From IMG/VR virus record IMGVR_UViG_3300050821_008081, positions 1 through 45,128 of that record: a stretch of DNA of 45,128 nucleotides, one strand, 5' to 3'. The position numbers and the translations under genes are program-made. This document shows, piece after piece, positions 2,714-40,546 of the stretch (position 1 is its first letter; each line of letters opens with the position of its first letter). Below the pieces are notes generated by a model. The model searched no databases. It was not told where the DNA came from and saw only the letters and a program-made list of their open reading frames with translations. The stretch comes from a virus.

Positions 2714-2915
2714 AGTACAAATCAGACGCCCCTATCAAGAGCTGGAAGAGAATCTAAGCGTTGTTTATGGCAGCGGCTTAGAAGGAGTAGGATGTACTGA
2801 GTGTGGAGAGTACACATATCGAAAAGATAGAAAAATCTATCACGAAAAAGCTTTAGTTTGGATAAGTCTTGATGAGTTAAAAGACCTACTAAAAAACAAA
2901 AATGCCAACGACTAA
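2706..2915 (+). CDS. Hypothetical small protein with a CxxC motif
   Basis: 69 residues. A CTECG motif in the middle could supply half of a zinc site. The gene overlaps the previous one by 8 bp and the ATPase gene that follows by 14 bp. Family not recognised. Confidence 0.65.
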   Translation: MIEVQIRRPYQELEENLSVVYGSGLEGVGCTECGEYTYRKDRKIYHEKALVWISLDELKDLLKNKNAND

Positions 2916-3723
2916 CGATCAACAACCTAAAAGGGGAGTCTTTGCATTATTCAAGGGCGCGCCCAACAGTGGTAAATCAGTAGGCTCACTCTCCTTCCCG
3001 AATCCTTTTGTACTTGACTTTGACAGGAAAATGCCGACAATTGGTGAGAAACATTTTCCTGGAAAGTTATTCAGTTGGGAACATTTTGATGATGTATTTC
3101 AACTGTCTGATTTCTTACGCCCCTGGATGCAAGCAACTCCTGACTCAGCCCTAGCTTGTCCCTATGAAACACTCATTGTCGACACGTTAACCTCCCTTTC
3201 CACAACAGTACTAAGGAGCGTCGACAAAACTAAAGGGACAAATGCCGTGGAATTAATGGGCAAGTTATCTAAAGATAAAGATGGAACTAAAACAGTAGAA
3301 GTCATGGGAATGGATTACTACAACGCCGAGGCTAACTTCTTTGAGCGTTATTTCATTGATAATTTGAAGATCCTTTGGGCACGACCAGGGAATCCTAGGC
3401 ACGTAATAGTTATTGCTCATGAAATTACTGTTGAGTCTGCACCTGATTTACGCACAAAACTAGTTACGCGCACAAAATCTATTTTGACCGCAGGCAGGAA
3501 GCCGGCAGCTCAGATCCCTAAGTCATTTGATGAAGAGTATGTATTCAGACTAGAACGACCGTCACTTGGTGACTCTTTGAATAAAAGTAAGCGGTTCTGC
3601 ATTACAACCCCTGATTTAGATGAAGATGCAAGGACTGCTTACAATTTTCCTGATAAAATAGACTTTACGAATAAGTCTTTGTATGATGAGTTGAATAAAG
3701 TTGGCAGATGGGAGGAGAAATGA
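2902..3723 (+). CDS. AAA ATPase, Sak4-like single-strand recombinase
   Basis: 273 residues. Walker A is GAPNSGKS (residues 19-26), followed by a short strand with an acidic loop (FVLDFDRK) and a Walker B-like TLIVDTLTSL near residue 90. This short RecA-like core with little else is the layout of the AAA_24/Sak4 group of phage recombinases, which pair single strands during recombination-dependent replication. Its neighbours, a MazG-like enzyme and further on the polymerase, support a DNA-metabolism role. The alternative is another small P-loop ATPase; a search against Sak4 profiles would decide. Confidence 0.75.
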   Translation: MPTTNDQQPKRGVFALFKGAPNSGKSVGSLSFPNPFVLDFDRKMPTIGEKHFPGKLFSWEHFDDVFQLSDFLRPWMQATPDSALACPYETLIVDTLTSLSTTVLRSVDKTKGTNAVELMGKLSKDKDGTKTVEVMGMDYYNAEANFFERYFIDNLKILWARPGNPRHVIVIAHEITVESAPDLRTKLVTRTKSILTAGRKPAAQIPKSFDEEYVFRLERPSLGDSLNKSKRFCITTPDLDEDARTAYNFPDKIDFTNKSLYDELNKVGRWEEK

Positions 3724-4055
3724 ATCAAGCTTTTTCAGCTAGAAACCTAAAGCGTTGTGAGTCCCCAGAAGGGTTTAACCACCCCCTAAATAGTTGGTCA
3801 CTATCAGACTGGATGACAGCCTTTGTCGGAGAAGTAGGAGAGGCAGCTAATGTAATTAAAAAGTTAAATCGAGTACGTGATGGGATTCCTGGAAATAAAG
3901 AAACCCCAGAACAGTTAAGAAATAATTTAGCTGAGGAGCTTGCAGATGCTTACATCTACTTAGATCTTCTATGCCAAGCGGCGGAAATTAACTTAGAAAG
4001 TGCTGTTGAGCAAAAGTTTTTTGATACCTCAATAAGAATTGGGTATGAGAAATAG
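3720..4055 (+). CDS. MazG-like nucleotide pyrophosphohydrolase
   Basis: 111 residues from ATG 3720, chosen because GGAGG lies just upstream and the start overlaps the previous stop (ATGA). The metal-binding signature of the all-alpha NTP pyrophosphatase fold is visible as EVGEAAN and, after a loop, EELADAYIYLDLL (ExxE...ExxD). Such phage enzymes hydrolyse NTPs or dNTPs to monophosphates and may lower stress nucleotides or clean the pool before replication. Substrate cannot be read from sequence. Confidence 0.85.
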   Translation: MNQAFSARNLKRCESPEGFNHPLNSWSLSDWMTAFVGEVGEAANVIKKLNRVRDGIPGNKETPEQLRNNLAEELADAYIYLDLLCQAAEINLESAVEQKFFDTSIRIGYEK

Positions 4056-4134: not shown

Positions 4135-4500
4135 ATGCCCGATGTAACGTTCACACAAGAAGATATTGTCTCCTCCGTAGCAATGGAGGCAGGATGGCAA
4201 CCACTCGCATTAAAAGACATTAATGAAGGTCCTGGAGGAAAAGATCCCTCTTCAACTACTTGGACTTGTGATTTCGTAGTCCTAGATGGCCCTTATAAGG
4301 GAGCGATGATCAGAACCTTCTTTAGCAGTAAGAGAATGCGAGATGTAATTAACTATGTATCTTGCTTCGTAGCGAAGCCGGTAGCTGGTCAGTCCTATCC
4401 TCTTGAAAGTACAAAGGATAAACCGGTCATGGGTTATTGTCAACACGACCCCTCATTTAACAATAACAAGGTTGTATCATTCAAGCCCGTTGGGAAGTAG
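4135..4500 (+). CDS. Hypothetical protein, possible replication accessory
   Basis: 121 residues, preceded by a purine-rich leader (AAGGATAAAAGAAAAAGT). It has beta-strand-like blocks: a WTCDFVVLDGPYKGA stretch and an RTFF strand. I do not recognise a family. Its place between the MazG/ATPase pair and the polymerase invites comparison with small phage ssDNA-binding proteins, but that is inference from position. A hairpin follows its stop. Confidence 0.6.
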   Translation: MPDVTFTQEDIVSSVAMEAGWQPLALKDINEGPGGKDPSSTTWTCDFVVLDGPYKGAMIRTFFSSKRMRDVINYVSCFVAKPVAGQSYPLESTKDKPVMGYCQHDPSFNNNKVVSFKPVGK

Positions 4501-4508
4501 AATTTCTT

Positions 4509-4546
4509 TAGCGCGCTTGTCCTGTTAATTCAAGATGGGCGTGCTA
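4509..4546 (+). terminator. Possible weak terminator or attenuator hairpin
   Basis: TAGCGCGC (4509-4516) can pair with GCGTGCTA (4539-4546) with one G-U pair, followed by ATTTTCT. It lies between two same-strand genes, so it may partly stop transcription or stabilise the upstream mRNA end. The T tract is short. Confidence 0.4.
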
Positions 4547-4588
4547 ATTTTCTGAGTAATAAAGAAATAGCAAACTAAGGAGAAGGAA

Positions 4589-4750
4589 ATGCCAACTTTT
4601 AATTTCAGACTGACTGCAACAGTCTATGCAACTGACGAACAAGCGGCGAGAGATGCAATCAATAACTTAGCCGGCATTGACAATATTGATATTGAAGATG
4701 GGCCGGATGAAGAAATTGCTGTTGATGAAGATGATTCTTCAGAAGAATAA
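4589..4750 (+). CDS. Small acidic protein
   Basis: 53 residues with a near-ideal ribosome site (AAGGAGAAGG) just upstream. The N-terminal half looks like a small alpha/beta fold (FNFRLTATVYATDEQAARDA), the C-terminal half is almost all Asp and Glu. Such acidic tails occur in DNA-mimic and SSB-like phage proteins, but nothing here proves either. It is followed directly by the structured non-coding region. Confidence 0.75.
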   Translation: MPTFNFRLTATVYATDEQAARDAINNLAGIDNIDIEDGPDEEIAVDEDDSSEE

Positions 4751-4760
4751 ATAAAAACAA

Positions 4761-4814
4761 TATTCACTGGTTAGCTCAAGGAGCTAAATAACGCTGCCGC
4801 CGCAGCAGTGAATA
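4761..4814 (+). ncRNA. Structured RNA candidate (multi-branch fold)
   Basis: TATTCACTG (4761-4769) pairs perfectly with CAGTGAATA (4806-4814), enclosing a perfect 7-bp hairpin TTAGCTC-AAG-GAGCTAA (4771-4787) and a second short hairpin CTGC-CGCC-GCAG (about 4794-4805). Together these give a three-way junction. An intrinsic terminator begins 3 nt later, so transcripts from upstream would end in this fold. No coding frame with a ribosome site occupies it. It could be a stable mRNA 3' end, a small RNA or a regulatory element. Confidence 0.55.
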
Positions 4815-4816
4815 AT

Positions 4817-4861
4817 CTCGGGGAATGTGGCTGAGTGTGCATTCCCCGAGAGTTTTCTTTT
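4817..4861 (+). terminator. Intrinsic terminator
   Basis: CTCGGGGAATG (4817-4827) and its exact complement CATTCCCCGAG (4840-4850) form an 11-bp stem with a 12-nt loop, followed by AGTTTTCTTTT. It would end the rightward transcript coming from the recombinase/MazG genes and separates it from the methyltransferase-polymerase group. Confidence 0.85.
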
Positions 4862-4940
4862 GGCCTGTTTTGATCTTGGGAACTTGGTAGCCTCCGACAA
4901 GGTAATCCTTATCAAGATAGAATGCAAGCAAGACAGGCCA
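4861..4940 (+). other. Second folded non-coding segment, possible leader or promoter region
   Basis: TGGCCTGT (4861-4868) is the exact complement of ACAGGCCA (4933-4940). Inside lie ATCTTG/CAAGAT (4873-4878/4913-4918) and AAGG-TAAT-CCTT (4899-4910). The size is tRNA-like but there is no T-loop or anticodon arm. A weak promoter match (CCGACA, 18 nt, TAGAAT at 4918-4923) overlaps it and could serve the methyltransferase gene. Role uncertain. Confidence 0.4.
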
Positions 4941-4985
4941 AATGAAAAGCAATATTCAGAAAACGAACATTGAAAGAGGAAATCC

Positions 4986-6233
4986 TTGCCTGAAATTGAC
5001 ATTAACTTAATTGTTCATGATGAGCTGAATTTTCCTGAAGAAGTTATTCAACCTATTAGGGAGTCTATTGCTGAAAAAGGTTTATTTCATCCTGTCTTGG
5101 TTCAGCGTGTTGGATATGATCCTGATGGTGGAGGGGCAATTGAAGAATATAAGCTTATTGCAGGCAAGAAACGTTTGCGCGCGCTGCAACAGTTAGGTAT
5201 AAAAGTAGTCGATGTTAAAACTTATCCCTCAGACTTAACTACAGACCAGATCTTAGAGCTAAACCTTCATGAAAACCTAAAGCGCGACAATGCAACCTGG
5301 TACGAACAAGTTGAAATGCGGAAGCAACTTCACGAACTACGTCGAAGAATGCACGGCGGCGCGCAAACTCGCGGGGGCTCCATTTACAGGGAAAAAGGCT
5401 GGACACAAGCAGATACAGCTCGTGAACTAGGCATTGCCGTTGGCGTTTTGAACGAGGACATTCAACTTGCCAATGCAGTAGCAACTGATCCCAGCCTTTC
5501 TAAAGTCAAGGATAAAATTACAGCATTAAGGCTAATTAAAAACAGAGCCAAACGTGAGGAATCACAAGCTTTTGCGCTTTTGCCTTCTGATTTTGAAATG
5601 AATCAAGTATTCTTAGGAGGGGCTGAAGAAATTCTGAAGCAAATACCTGCTAGGACCTTCGATGCTTGTATAACTGATCCTCCCTGGTCGCAGTATGCTA
5701 GAAATGAAGAACTAACTTCAGACCAAGTTGATTTAATTCCAGTCTTCAAAGAAGTATTTAGAGTTCTCAAGGACGATAGCTTCCTATTTGTAATCACATC
5801 GAGTACAGACCAACCTCATTACATGGCTGAACTTCCCAAGTTAGGATTTGCTGTTCAGCAGTATCCACTTATCTGGCAAAAGAACAGAACTATAACGCAC
5901 GGTCGACGCAATTGGGAATTTGCACGTGACTATGAGCCTATCATTCTTGCAGTCAAGGGGAATCCAATTTTGAATTCAGCAACTGAAATTAGCAGCATAT
6001 TGAATCATCCAAATCTCCATTACAGCAAGATGATACATCCACACGAGAAGCCACCTGAACTGTTACGTCAGTTAATTAAGAATTGTTCCTACGATGGAAG
6101 TTGCATTTTGGACCCCTTCGCTGGAAGTGGCGTAACTTTAAGTACTGCAAAGGAATGCAATAGACAGTTCATTGGCATTGAAAAGGATTTAGCTTTCTAT
6201 AATCAAATTGTTAAGAGGCTTTATGGAAGGTAA
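4986..6233 (+). CDS. ParB-domain / DNA methyltransferase fusion
   Basis: 415 residues from a TTG start with GAAAGAGGAAA upstream. Residues about 1-105 match the ParB/Sulfiredoxin N-terminal domain (GLFHPVLV, then a YKLIAGKKRLRA box and a conserved ENLKR segment); a helix-turn-helix-like region follows. Residues about 200-415 are a beta-class amino-methyltransferase: catalytic DPPW near 231, then the SAM site DPFAGSG near 376-382. The product would methylate adenine N6 or cytosine N4. Such fusions occur in phages and mobile elements, where they may protect phage DNA or mark it for timing. No restriction partner is present. Confidence 0.9.
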   Translation: MPEIDINLIVHDELNFPEEVIQPIRESIAEKGLFHPVLVQRVGYDPDGGGAIEEYKLIAGKKRLRALQQLGIKVVDVKTYPSDLTTDQILELNLHENLKRDNATWYEQVEMRKQLHELRRRMHGGAQTRGGSIYREKGWTQADTARELGIAVGVLNEDIQLANAVATDPSLSKVKDKITALRLIKNRAKREESQAFALLPSDFEMNQVFLGGAEEILKQIPARTFDACITDPPWSQYARNEELTSDQVDLIPVFKEVFRVLKDDSFLFVITSSTDQPHYMAELPKLGFAVQQYPLIWQKNRTITHGRRNWEFARDYEPIILAVKGNPILNSATEISSILNHPNLHYSKMIHPHEKPPELLRQLIKNCSYDGSCILDPFAGSGVTLSTAKECNRQFIGIEKDLAFYNQIVKRLYGR

Positions 6234-6408
6234 ATTTAATCATTATCAGAAACAACGAGAAGAAGATGATATGGGATCTCCAATGTATGAAGTTACAGTG
6301 TCTCAGTGTTTCTTTTGTGAAAAAGACTCTGTCTGTTTAGCTATAATTGAAATGGTTCCTGGCAGTGCTGGAATAATTCGTCTTGTCTGTGAAGACCATA
6401 GAAAATAG
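6223..6408 (+). CDS. Small zinc-binding protein
   Basis: 61 residues from ATG 6223, chosen for AAGAGG 4 nt upstream; the start overlaps the methyltransferase end by 11 bp. A later ATG at 6271 is an alternative. CFFC and CEDH about 25 residues apart suggest one zinc site. No family recognised. It sits just before the polymerase gene, whose ATG follows its stop by one base. Confidence 0.65.
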   Translation: MEGKFNHYQKQREEDDMGSPMYEVTVSQCFFCEKDSVCLAIIEMVPGSAGIIRLVCEDHRK

Positions 6409-6409
6409 A

Positions 6410-8920
6410 ATGCCAAACTACGTAAAAGGCCATGGACCTAACTCAGCAAAGTTGATGGTAGTAGGCGAAGCTCCAGGAGCTGAAGAAGAACGACAAGGTA
6501 GAAACTTCGTAGGAGCTACAGGTAAAATTGTTCGCGAGTCTCTTCGATCCACAGGCATTGATCCAGAGTCAGTTTACTACACTAACGTAGTAAAGATTCG
6601 TCCGCCATCGAACAGTATTAAAAGATTAAAGGAGTATGGTCAAGAAATTAAAGATTTTATTCCTCAACTCTGGGAAGAGATAGATTCACTTCAGCCAAAT
6701 TGCATATTAGCTTTTGGAAATACAGCATTGACTGCATTAACTGGCCTTGAAGGCATTGAGTCCTACCGAGGAAGTATCCTTCCCTCTTGCTACGGAAGCA
6801 GAAAGGTAGTCCCCACTATTCATCCAGCCTCTTTAATGCATGGTGAGGGTGATGGAAAGCTAAGGTCTTGGGCCGATTTAACTTTCATTAAGTGGGACAT
6901 TGCTCGCGCTGTTAAGCAAAGTGCTTTCCCCGATATTCATACCCCTAAAAGAAACTTAATAGCCTGCAAATCCAACCTTGAACTTTATAGATTCTTGAAT
7001 AAAAATGCTGATAAGAAATTAGTAGCCACTGACATCGAGACATTTAAGACAATTCCAGTTTGCATTTCCTTTGCATTTTCAGCAAATGAGGCAATTAGCG
7101 TTCCTCTTTTCTCCAACTTGGCAAACAATGAAGATTTTCCATTAACAAGAAGCGACGTAGTTCAAAACTGGAAAGATATTGCAGAATTCTTAGGAGATAA
7201 TCATGTTCAGAAAATCGGCCAGAATTTTAAATTTGATGAGTTCCTTTTGGCCTTGTCGCTTAACGACACTCTCCCAATTGGTCTTGTTACCCGAGGTTTT
7301 TACTTTGATAATCTTCTGGCATTCCGTACCTTATATCCTGAACTTCCGGGCTCGCTTGCTTTCCAGACTTCAGTCCTAACAGAAGAACCTTATTACAAAG
7401 AAGAGGGAAAAGGCTATAATCCAAAAAAAGACAAAATAGAAAGGTTATTACTTTACAATGCAAAAGACTCAGCAATCAGTTACGAATGCTACGAACGCGA
7501 GCTTGAGGAGTTACGAGCTAGAAATCTTGAGTCATTTTTCTTCGAGCGAGTTATGCCTCTGCATCCTTTTTATTCACGTATGGAGAGAAGAGGAATTAAA
7601 AGGGATGCCTTTGCTAAGGCGTTCCTTGATGAAAAGTATAAAGATCTCCAACAAGAGAGACAAATCGAGCTTAATGGACTTTGTGAACCCTACGGAGTCA
7701 CAAATCTCAACGTCAACTCCAACGGAATGAACAATCAAGTTGGCAAGCTTTTGTTCGTTCAAATGCAATTGCCAATTAGAAAAGGAACAGATGAGAAGAC
7801 TATTGACGCCATTAGAAGAAATGTCCTCAAAGGTACTTCTACGGAAACTTCCGCGAAACGGAGAATCCTGGAACTTATCTTACAAATCAGAAAAATCAGA
7901 AAAACCAGAGGAACTTATATTGACGCTAAACCTCACAGTGACGGCAAACTGCGAACGAGTGTCAGAATTATGCTCGAAAGTGGTCGCACTGCTACTGGAA
8001 TTCTTCAGCCACCAGTAACTACTGAGAAGATGGGAATTGCATTTCAGACTATAACTAAGCATGGAGAGTTTGGTTCTGATTTGAGAAGCATGTTCGTTCC
8101 TGATTCCGGCTATGTTTTCATTGAACCTGATCTTTCACAAGCGGAAGCAAGAGTAGTAGCAGTTCTTGCAAGAGATGAAAAGTTAGTGAAAATGTTTGAG
8201 TACCAAGTTGATATTCACCGGGTAACTTCCTCCTGGGTTAAAGGTTTGCGCGTTTGCTTTCTTGACGAGTTTTTCACAGAACAGAATCCTCACGAATGCC
8301 AATCACTAGCAAAGAAAATCAATAAAACATTGAAAGAAACTACAACTGATGATGAACGGCAAACAGGTAAGAAATTCAGGCACGCAGGGCATTATGACAT
8401 GGGCAAGCATGAAGCAAGCGAACAGATAGGCATACCTGAGTTTGTTGCAGGGCAGATTTTACAAAAGTTTCATGCGACTAATCCGAATATCAAAGGGGTC
8501 TTTCATGCTGAAATTAAGGACTTCTTGAATAAGAATAATAGGATGCTAACTAATCCATTTGGTAGGACTCGTCAGTTTCTTAACAAGTGGGGAGAAGATT
8601 TATGGAAAGAGGCGTATGCTCAGATACCACAATCGACAGTATCGGACCAAGTTAAGTTTGCTATGATTAGAATCGAGAAACGAGCACCTTGGTTAGAAAT
8701 TTTACAGGAGAGTCATGATTCATTCCTTGCTCAGTGCCCTTTGCTTATTGGTAGCTTATCTCCTTTTGCTCTGGTCGATAGAACTTATCCAATTATTAAA
8801 GAGGAGTTGGAGATGCCTATTAATTTTACTAATTGCTCTCTTGGCACAGGCAATCTGGTTATTCCTTCAGAAATAAAGATGGGCAGTAAATCATGGCTTG
8901 AAATGGAAAGGGTAATGTGA
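6410..8920 (+). CDS. Uracil-DNA-glycosylase-like domain fused to family A DNA polymerase
   Basis: 836 residues from ATG 6410. Residues about 10-160 resemble family 4 uracil-DNA glycosylase: GEAPGAEEE (19-27), an FVGATGK segment and HPASL near 138. The Cys usually seen in the CRPP-type motif is Ile here and no N-terminal Cys pair exists, so the iron-sulfur cluster is probably absent. Then comes a DEDD 3'-5' exonuclease (DIET near 208, NFKFD near 272, YNAKD near 348) and a Pol I-type core: motif A DLSQAEAR near 574, motif B R650-x3-K654-x3-H658-x3-Y662, motif C SHDS near 769. His replaces the usual Phe or Tyr in motif B and Ser the usual Glu in motif C. This is the replicative polymerase. Confidence 0.93.
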   Translation: MPNYVKGHGPNSAKLMVVGEAPGAEEERQGRNFVGATGKIVRESLRSTGIDPESVYYTNVVKIRPPSNSIKRLKEYGQEIKDFIPQLWEEIDSLQPNCILAFGNTALTALTGLEGIESYRGSILPSCYGSRKVVPTIHPASLMHGEGDGKLRSWADLTFIKWDIARAVKQSAFPDIHTPKRNLIACKSNLELYRFLNKNADKKLVATDIETFKTIPVCISFAFSANEAISVPLFSNLANNEDFPLTRSDVVQNWKDIAEFLGDNHVQKIGQNFKFDEFLLALSLNDTLPIGLVTRGFYFDNLLAFRTLYPELPGSLAFQTSVLTEEPYYKEEGKGYNPKKDKIERLLLYNAKDSAISYECYERELEELRARNLESFFFERVMPLHPFYSRMERRGIKRDAFAKAFLDEKYKDLQQERQIELNGLCEPYGVTNLNVNSNGMNNQVGKLLFVQMQLPIRKGTDEKTIDAIRRNVLKGTSTETSAKRRILELILQIRKIRKTRGTYIDAKPHSDGKLRTSVRIMLESGRTATGILQPPVTTEKMGIAFQTITKHGEFGSDLRSMFVPDSGYVFIEPDLSQAEARVVAVLARDEKLVKMFEYQVDIHRVTSSWVKGLRVCFLDEFFTEQNPHECQSLAKKINKTLKETTTDDERQTGKKFRHAGHYDMGKHEASEQIGIPEFVAGQILQKFHATNPNIKGVFHAEIKDFLNKNNRMLTNPFGRTRQFLNKWGEDLWKEAYAQIPQSTVSDQVKFAMIRIEKRAPWLEILQESHDSFLAQCPLLIGSLSPFALVDRTYPIIKEELEMPINFTNCSLGTGNLVIPSEIKMGSKSWLEMERVM

Positions 8921-39210: not shown

Positions 39211-39360
39211 ATGAAACAACTAACCTATAAAACTCAGTGGCGCGCATTTGAACGGCTTTCCCACTTTGCCCAGGCTGGCATTCTTGAAACCTGGTGGTTC
39301 ACGCTGAACGGCGAAGTAGTAATTGTGGTCCGCCGCGAACGCAAGCGCAAAAAACTTTGA
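39211..39360 (+). CDS. Small basic protein
   Basis: 49 residues with AAAAGG upstream, right after a strong promoter. It contains an aromatic stretch (LETWWFTLNG), a VVIVVRR strand and a Lys/Arg-rich end, which suggests nucleic-acid or membrane-surface contact. Not recognised. Less AT-rich than its neighbours. Confidence 0.65.
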   Translation: MKQLTYKTQWRAFERLSHFAQAGILETWWFTLNGEVVIVVRRERKRKKL

Positions 39361-39370
39361 GTTTTTTCGG

Positions 39371-39444
39371 CTCGCCTATTGACATAGGTAGGCGAGTCTG
39401 CTAGAATTGCTTCAGTGGTTCAGTAGGGCAAGCGATTCTAGCAG
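39371..39444 (+). promoter_or_regulatory. Promoter embedded in two inverted repeats
   Basis: TTGACA (39379-39384), 17 nt, TAGAAT (39402-39407) is a near-consensus promoter. The -35 box lies in the loop of CTCGCCTA/TAGGCGAG (39371-39378/39389-39396), and the -10 box is part of CTGCTAGAAT, repeated inverted as ATTCTAGCAG at 39435-39444. These are likely operator sites. The promoter serves the gene at 39505. Confidence 0.7.
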
Positions 39445-39504
39445 GCGCAATGCCTAAATTCGGGTGGCAACCGTAAACAGCCGGAAAAGGAAAGTGACCC
39501 AAAA

Positions 39505-39882
39505 ATGACTACGAAAAGCATCACAGTCGAAAAGACGTTTGGCAGCGGAGACAACTCCAAGACTGTCAATAAGGCCGGTACTTGTGTTGTGGCTGAGACT
39601 GCCGAGGACATTCTTTCTCTTCTTCAAGAAGACGCGACTTCGCCTGTTGGAAAAGATGCGACCGAGACGGAAATCAAACGGCAACGTAACCGCGTGATCG
39701 ACTATTTCAACTACGCGTCCGACTTGAAGGCACGCGCAAAACTGACTGCCGCATTGAACAGTGAAAACGTCGATCCTGATAAGGCGAACGAAAAGGCCCT
39801 TGAGCAGTTCAATAAGGCGCGTTTGGCCAATGGGAAAGCCGCTGTTGACATGGATAAGTTTCTGCTTATCATGGGTTCGTAA
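39505..39882 (+). CDS. Hypothetical early protein
   Basis: 125 residues with AAAAGGAAAG upstream, expressed from the promoter at 39379. Mostly helical and charged (for example TETEIKRQRNRVIDYFNYAS, then DLKARAKLTAALN). A strong terminator follows 19 nt after the stop, so this is a single-gene transcript, probably highly expressed. Family not recognised. Confidence 0.75.
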   Translation: MTTKSITVEKTFGSGDNSKTVNKAGTCVVAETAEDILSLLQEDATSPVGKDATETEIKRQRNRVIDYFNYASDLKARAKLTAALNSENVDPDKANEKALEQFNKARLANGKAAVDMDKFLLIMGS

Positions 39883-39901
39883 GATTTTCGCCTGTTATTC
39901 T

Positions 39902-39933
39902 GGCCCTGAGTCGAAAGACTTGGGGCCTTTTTT
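39902..39933 (+). terminator. Intrinsic terminator
   Basis: GGCCCTGAGTC (39902-39912), a GAAA tetraloop, and GACTTGGGGCC (39917-39927) form an 11-bp stem with two G-U pairs, followed by six T. Ends the transcript of the gene at 39505. Confidence 0.92.
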
Positions 39934-39944
39934 GCGTCTAGGTG

Positions 39945-40112
39945 ATGAAAAGACACGTGGAAGAAAAGGCGAAGGCGCTTCGAATGGCTGGCCTATATAA
40001 GGAAGGGCGGGCGAACGGCAGAATAGGCCTTGCAGGGCCGGAAAGTGGCCAAGGTTCGTTCAAAAGCAAACAACCGTGGGTAAGTGCAGGCCAGTTTCAC
40101 AAACGAACCTAG
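39945..40112 (+). CDS. Possible 55-residue basic protein
   Basis: An open frame from ATG 39945 to TAG 40110-40112 encodes a Lys/Arg/Gly-rich sequence (EEKAKALRMAGLYKEGRANG). It starts just after a terminator and has only AGGTG next to the ATG, so it may not be translated. Could instead be part of a non-coding control region. Confidence 0.3.
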   Translation: MKRHVEEKAKALRMAGLYKEGRANGRIGLAGPESGQGSFKSKQPWVSAGQFHKRT

Positions 40113-40299
40113 AACGTTTAAAGACCCCCCTCACCCTCTACCCCCTAGGGGCGAAAGGGGGGACGCAAGTGAATTGCCAAAGTTAAGTTGTTTGTTTTCT
40201 TCTATTTTTTCTTTTTTTTTTTTTAATCTTTTTAGACTTTTAATCCCGTTTTAGGCCCGCAATTCGAAGTTTGCCCTCAGTTTGCCTTCTCTCTGCTCA

Positions 40300-40336
40300 G
40301 TAAAATTTACCGGTAAAATTTACACGTAATAATTAC
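40300..40336. repeat. Three tandem 11-bp near-palindromes (iteron-like)
   Basis: GTAAAATTTAC at 40300-40310 and 40313-40323, and GTAATAATTAC at 40326-40336. Starts are exactly 13 bp apart. Regular spacing suggests binding of several protein copies, either an initiator or a repressor. Confidence 0.75.
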
Positions 40337-40363
40337 CGATTTCATTAAAATCCATTAATGTAC

Positions 40364-40392
40364 TTGCTTGGGAGAGAGAGGGGGTGTATGCT
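40364..40392 (+). promoter_or_regulatory. Possible promoter downstream of the iterons
   Basis: TTGCTT (40364-40369), 17 nt, TATGCT (40387-40392). It starts 27 bp after the tandem repeats, so a protein bound there could control it. It would drive the genes from 40547. Confidence 0.4.
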
Positions 40393-40546
40393 TATGTAGT
40401 GAGGCGCCTTCCCTGTAGAATCAACGTTGTAACAAGGCGTAGCAAGCCCATTCGCTACTAGCAGGTTGGCAGCTAGCGGCATGGTAGCGTTAGGCAAGCT
40501 GGCAGGGAAGCGGCTTGGCAGACATGAATAACCGAGGAAAATTTGA

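Follow-up and report, generated by a model that had tools for sequence, protein, structure and literature searches.

A predicted intrinsic terminator behind a three-way junction at a likely transcript end in an uncultured phage

A three-way junction RNA running into a predicted intrinsic terminator probably forms the end of the transcript that carries the genes for an SSB-like protein and a small acidic protein in the virus record IMGVR_UViG_3300050821_008081. The entire record (45,128 bases, positions 1 to 45,128) was analyzed and is called the window here. The junction lies at positions 4761-4814 and the terminator at 4816-4861, both on the + strand. Overall, the likeliest reading of the arrangement is a transcript end of an ordinary kind that may also be protective.

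The structured gap and its genes

The replication module of the window is encoded on the + strand and comprises, in order, genes for a Sak4-like annealing protein (2902-3723), a MazG-like protein (3708-4055), a 121-aa protein (4135-4500) and a 53-aa acidic protein (4589-4750), then a gap of 235 nt (4751-4985), a ParB-like/DNA N6/N4-methylase fusion with a TTG start (4986-6233) and a UDG/PolA polymerase (6383-8920). The likeliest assignment for the 121-aa product of the upstream cistron, made by fold and not by sequence, is a single-stranded-DNA-binding protein with an OB-fold. Its structure model (pLDDT 86.8) has the OB-fold DNA-binding protein PrgE as its top PDB fold match, with SsbA lower down the list, and its homologues give weak DUF669/SSB profile matches. 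The acidic gene was called as an open reading frame, and an acidic reading frame is found at the equivalent place in relatives. Between these two genes, a hairpin at 4508-4547 (+ strand; dG -20.9, z -4.85) begins 8 nt 3' of the SSB-like stop codon and is followed by TTTTCT, making it weakly terminator-like.

The three-way junction begins 10 nt past the stop codon of the acidic gene. As the original prediction described it, a 9-bp stem encloses a perfect 7-bp hairpin and a second short hairpin, and all three elements proved perfect when checked letter by letter. In P1, TATTCACTG (4761-4769) pairs with CAGTGAATA (4806-4814) at 9/9 positions. The enclosed hairpins are P2 (TTAGCTC-AAG-GAGCTAA, 4771-4787), pairing 4771-4777 with 4781-4787 at 7/7 positions, and P3 (GCTGC-CGCC-GCAGC, 4793-4806), pairing 4793-4797 with 4802-4806 at 5/5. 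P1 and P3 both claim C4806, and because P3 competes for this nucleotide, the minimum-energy fold retains 8 bp of P1 together with 7 of P2 and 5 of P3.

Two nucleotides past P1, the terminator stem begins. It has 14 pairs (4816-4829/4838-4851), comprising 12 Watson-Crick and two G-U pairs and including seven G-C pairs, and its end at 4851 is directly followed by the U-rich tail GTTTTCTTTT (4852-4861). Thus, both hallmarks of an intrinsic terminator, a stable GC-rich stem-loop and a U-tract immediately after it, are present. A terminator had been anticipated here with an 11-bp stem starting after 3 nt; the terminator itself stands, and the stem length and spacing are corrected to the values above. 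The broader description, of a compact structure that probably lies at the end of a transcript and runs into an intrinsic terminator, was borne out.

Both structures are more stable than expected from composition. None of 200 dinucleotide shuffles matched the junction alone (z = -3.9), the terminator alone (dG -23.8, z = -5.0) or the two combined (4740-4870, 131 nt, z = -6.0). Among 3002 genome windows, after correction for GC content, 4741-4860 on the + strand ranks second among fold outliers, behind 39331-39450. Furthermore, a perfect 9-bp stem around a perfect 7-bp hairpin occurs once on the + strand of the window and is absent from 20 mononucleotide-shuffled genomes of 45 kb.

The genome's strongest fold, at 39320-39505, consists of stacked hairpins in a gap. 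Two of these hairpins are spanned by a promoter-like sequence, TTGACA-17-TAGAAT, which suggests a promoter accompanied by operator dyads.

The fold belongs to no RNA class that could be recognized, in agreement with the original prediction. Covariance models from Rfam 15 gave no match in the window at the gathering score, and a relaxed search returned only hits far below it; ARAGORN identified no tRNA or tmRNA, and literature keyword searches recovered no paper on such an element. None of the three short open reading frames that cross the structured stretch matches a family convincingly (best E 0.08). The accompanying statement that the genome has almost no free space is only partly right: the 235-nt gap holds a third strong structure in addition to the junction and terminator, and at least one more long region, at about 39.9-40.5 kb, has short reading frames only. 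That region (39883-40546) also has a T-rich run near 40.2 kb.

The same position in related phages

Searches with blastn against phage records yielded no nucleotide relatives among named phages and no junction homologues. Protein searches were more productive, giving three loci via the methylase and 80 via the polymerase; in the genomes of cellular organisms they gave only remote polymerase matches of at most 29% identity. The order Sak4, SSB-like gene, small acidic gene, slot, ParB/methylase and UDG/PolA is kept in many relatives, including most of the closer ones.

None of these loci yielded the junction itself. BLASTN and nhmmer searches with 4751-4985 against all relative loci gave chance-level hits only, and when 66 sources (1.06 Mb) were scanned with a single-sequence, structure-aware covariance model of the junction, the window was the sole match. 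A search of all viral contigs for the P1 pattern returned 14 stretches whose interiors are unrelated. As far as can be seen from these sequences, the junction appears private to this phage, which indicates that the phages of this group, taken together, do not need the fold. The proposal of a functional RNA is therefore left unsupported, since the junction was found in no relative by these searches and the slot there holds other hairpins or terminators. On balance, a structured transcript end is now the likelier reading, ahead of an unproven distinct functional RNA, and the fold may be a 3'-UTR feature private to this phage that has no separate RNA function.

Specifically, the junction and terminator might together be a separate trans-acting small RNA, arising by 3'-UTR processing or from a promoter of its own, that targets phage or host RNAs. 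Small RNAs derived from 3' UTRs typically have compact, terminator-ended folds, and the fold here is indeed compact, stable and terminator-ended. However, this possibility is unlikely given that no homologue of the junction in which covariation could be scored was found in the 66 sources, that Rfam has no match, and that a promoter scan detected no promoter-like site immediately upstream.

The terminator has a different distribution. The slot was compared in 33 non-identical loci, the window included, that have a small acidic reading frame after the SSB-like gene, although this frame is probably mis-called in a few of them (L060, L062, L065 and L103). Terminators were counted when a stem of at least seven pairs, at least five of them G-C, with a T-rich tail, lay no more than 130 nt past the stop codon. 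Such a terminator follows the acidic gene in 17 of the 33 loci (again counting the window), compared with 3/31 for Sak4, 7/33 for the SSB-like gene and 0/31 for the methylase in the same loci, and with 0/33 when the 3' flanks of the acidic gene were shuffled. These counts are descriptive, since the criterion was fixed after the sequences had been seen and the loci are related rather than independent. Even so, the contrast between genes in the same loci is clear, and the predicted terminator is, on the sequences compared, a feature of conserved position.

The shape of the RNA at this position varies. Other hairpins or terminators, usually simpler, occupy the slot of relatives, and its fold has a z below -2 in 16 of the 33 loci. 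In several relatives the stem begins roughly 7-15 nt past the stop codon. In several, L026, L027, L041 and L045 among them, the loop of the terminator stem is long or branched, and thus an elaborate fold at such a transcript end is not unusual. One of these, L027, is among the closest relatives (61% polymerase identity) and has a multibranched slot fold, CTGGTGG..CCACCAG, of different sequence. Other slots have only a GC-rich hairpin that lacks a T-run, as in L034, L036 and L039, or contain the CGCG element described below.

Repeats in the gap and an RNA element of relatives

The third structure of the gap, an inverted repeat (4853-4948, unstranded), lies past the terminator stem and ahead of the methylase gene and overlaps the terminator tail. 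Its 20-nt arms, TTTTCTTTTGGCCTGTTTTG and CAAGACAGGCCAAATGAAAA (4853-4872/4929-4948), are 90% complementary and flank a 56-nt interior. This repeat was not found in relatives. A candidate promoter behind the terminator, CCGACA-18-TAGAAT within the inverted repeat, scores 9/12 and was rejected, as similar scores occur with similar frequency in shuffled sequence.

The structured stretch is bounded by an imperfect direct repeat (unstranded) with its left copy, AAATAAAAACAATATTCA, at 4749-4766 and its right copy at 4940-4958. The copies are 18 and 19 nt long (AAAT-AAAAACAATATTCA and AAATGAAAAGCAATATTCA), and the repeat has a shuffle p of about 0.001 that is post hoc. It possibly marks an insertion. 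If so, the region of about 4749-4958 might be an inserted palindromic element with no phage role, as would fit the repeat copies at both borders, the restriction of CAATATTCA to these two sites within the window, and the absence of the sequence from relatives. Still, such an origin is quite improbable: a slot terminator is common in relatives that lack the insert, the window has no second copy of the junction, the terminator or the inverted-repeat core, and the repeat is imperfect and was spotted after the fact.

The three consecutive dyads within 190 bp, adjoining replication genes, might instead act as DNA, with the stacked inverted repeats serving as a replication origin or operator. This is very unlikely. 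No iterons are present, the U-tract behind one of the dyads, on the coding strand, indicates termination, and the extremes of cumulative GC skew fall at switches in gene direction near 11-12 kb and 34-36 kb rather than at 4.8 kb.

Several relatives carry a different candidate RNA, CGCG-NGAAUNAAAUAUCGGA...CCACCGA-CGCG, in the slot or behind another gene, about 5-55 nt behind the stop codon on the coding strand. Its carriers are L001/L028 (L001:5611-5708), L022/L037, with two copies (L022:4740-4836 and 5037-5128), L030/L031 (L030:6289-6457), L035 (6352-6430), L038 (4662-4733), L048 (1488-1595), L144 (12685-12785, - strand), L146 (8551-8630), L149 (12114-12255), L150 (8310-8438, - strand) and L169 (355-450, - strand). 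P1 is closed by CGCG/CGCG and is followed by an 11-nt A-rich bulge and then UCGGA, whose first four bases, UCGG, pair with CCGA in ..CCACCGA. The interior is of variable length, and L022a and L048 have a small hairpin within the bulge. The CGCG core was partly set by the search design, and a search blind to P1 found L169, whose P1 is AAUCCUCGCG/CGCGGGGAUU.

P1 and P2 of this element show compensatory changes. Across ten sequences, 15 cells are changed on both sides, a number reached in 0 of 500 shuffles, and 90.8% of cells are paired, versus 23-49% in slid versions. Rfam has no match. The element is thus a candidate RNA with compensatory changes that is missing from Rfam and can be tested directly; our guess is that it acts in cis as an intercistronic mRNA element. 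In one carrier (L150:6598-9813, - strand), the UDG/exonuclease-like and polymerase parts of the PolA-like protein are separate reading frames, and the CGCG element and small reading frames lie between them.

The idea that the window junction is a divergent CGCG..CGCG element was discarded, because the element model has no match anywhere in the window record. It is conceivable, though doubtful, that the slot is an exchange site for functional RNA elements at transcript ends, with the junction as a version specific to one lineage and the covarying CGCG element as another, each controlling the same mRNA.

A structured transcript end and its possible role

If the stem and tail at 4816-4861 act as predicted, termination there would end, either fully or partly, the mRNA that covers the SSB-like gene and the small acidic gene, and would limit transcription into the downstream methylase and polymerase genes. 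The SSB-like and acidic proteins may be needed in quantity and would in this way be made in excess of the methylase and polymerase. The junction, as 3' untranslated region, would most likely either slow 3'-5' decay from the mRNA 3' end or stop upstream RNA from disturbing the folding of the terminator.

Several known systems offer parallels. Intrinsic (Rho-independent) terminators share the GC-rich stem and U-tract, here on the coding strand after the second gene of a pair, whereas the stem in the window is preceded by a private three-way junction that makes the 3' end more structured than usual. Similarly, 3'-UTR-derived small RNAs and REP-like stabilizing structures at the 3' ends of bacterial mRNAs are stable folds between the stop codon and the transcript end, but the fold in the window has no repeated or conserved sequence. 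Flaviviruses likewise carry, in a 3' untranslated region, exonuclease-resistant RNAs (xrRNAs) built on a three-way junction. This likeness is one of topology only, as no pseudoknot or homology was seen in the window's junction, and xrRNAs block eukaryotic 5'-3' enzymes.

For uncultured phages with such a replication module, the comparison indicates that the predicted transcription stop stays in place while the shape of the RNA around it is free to change.
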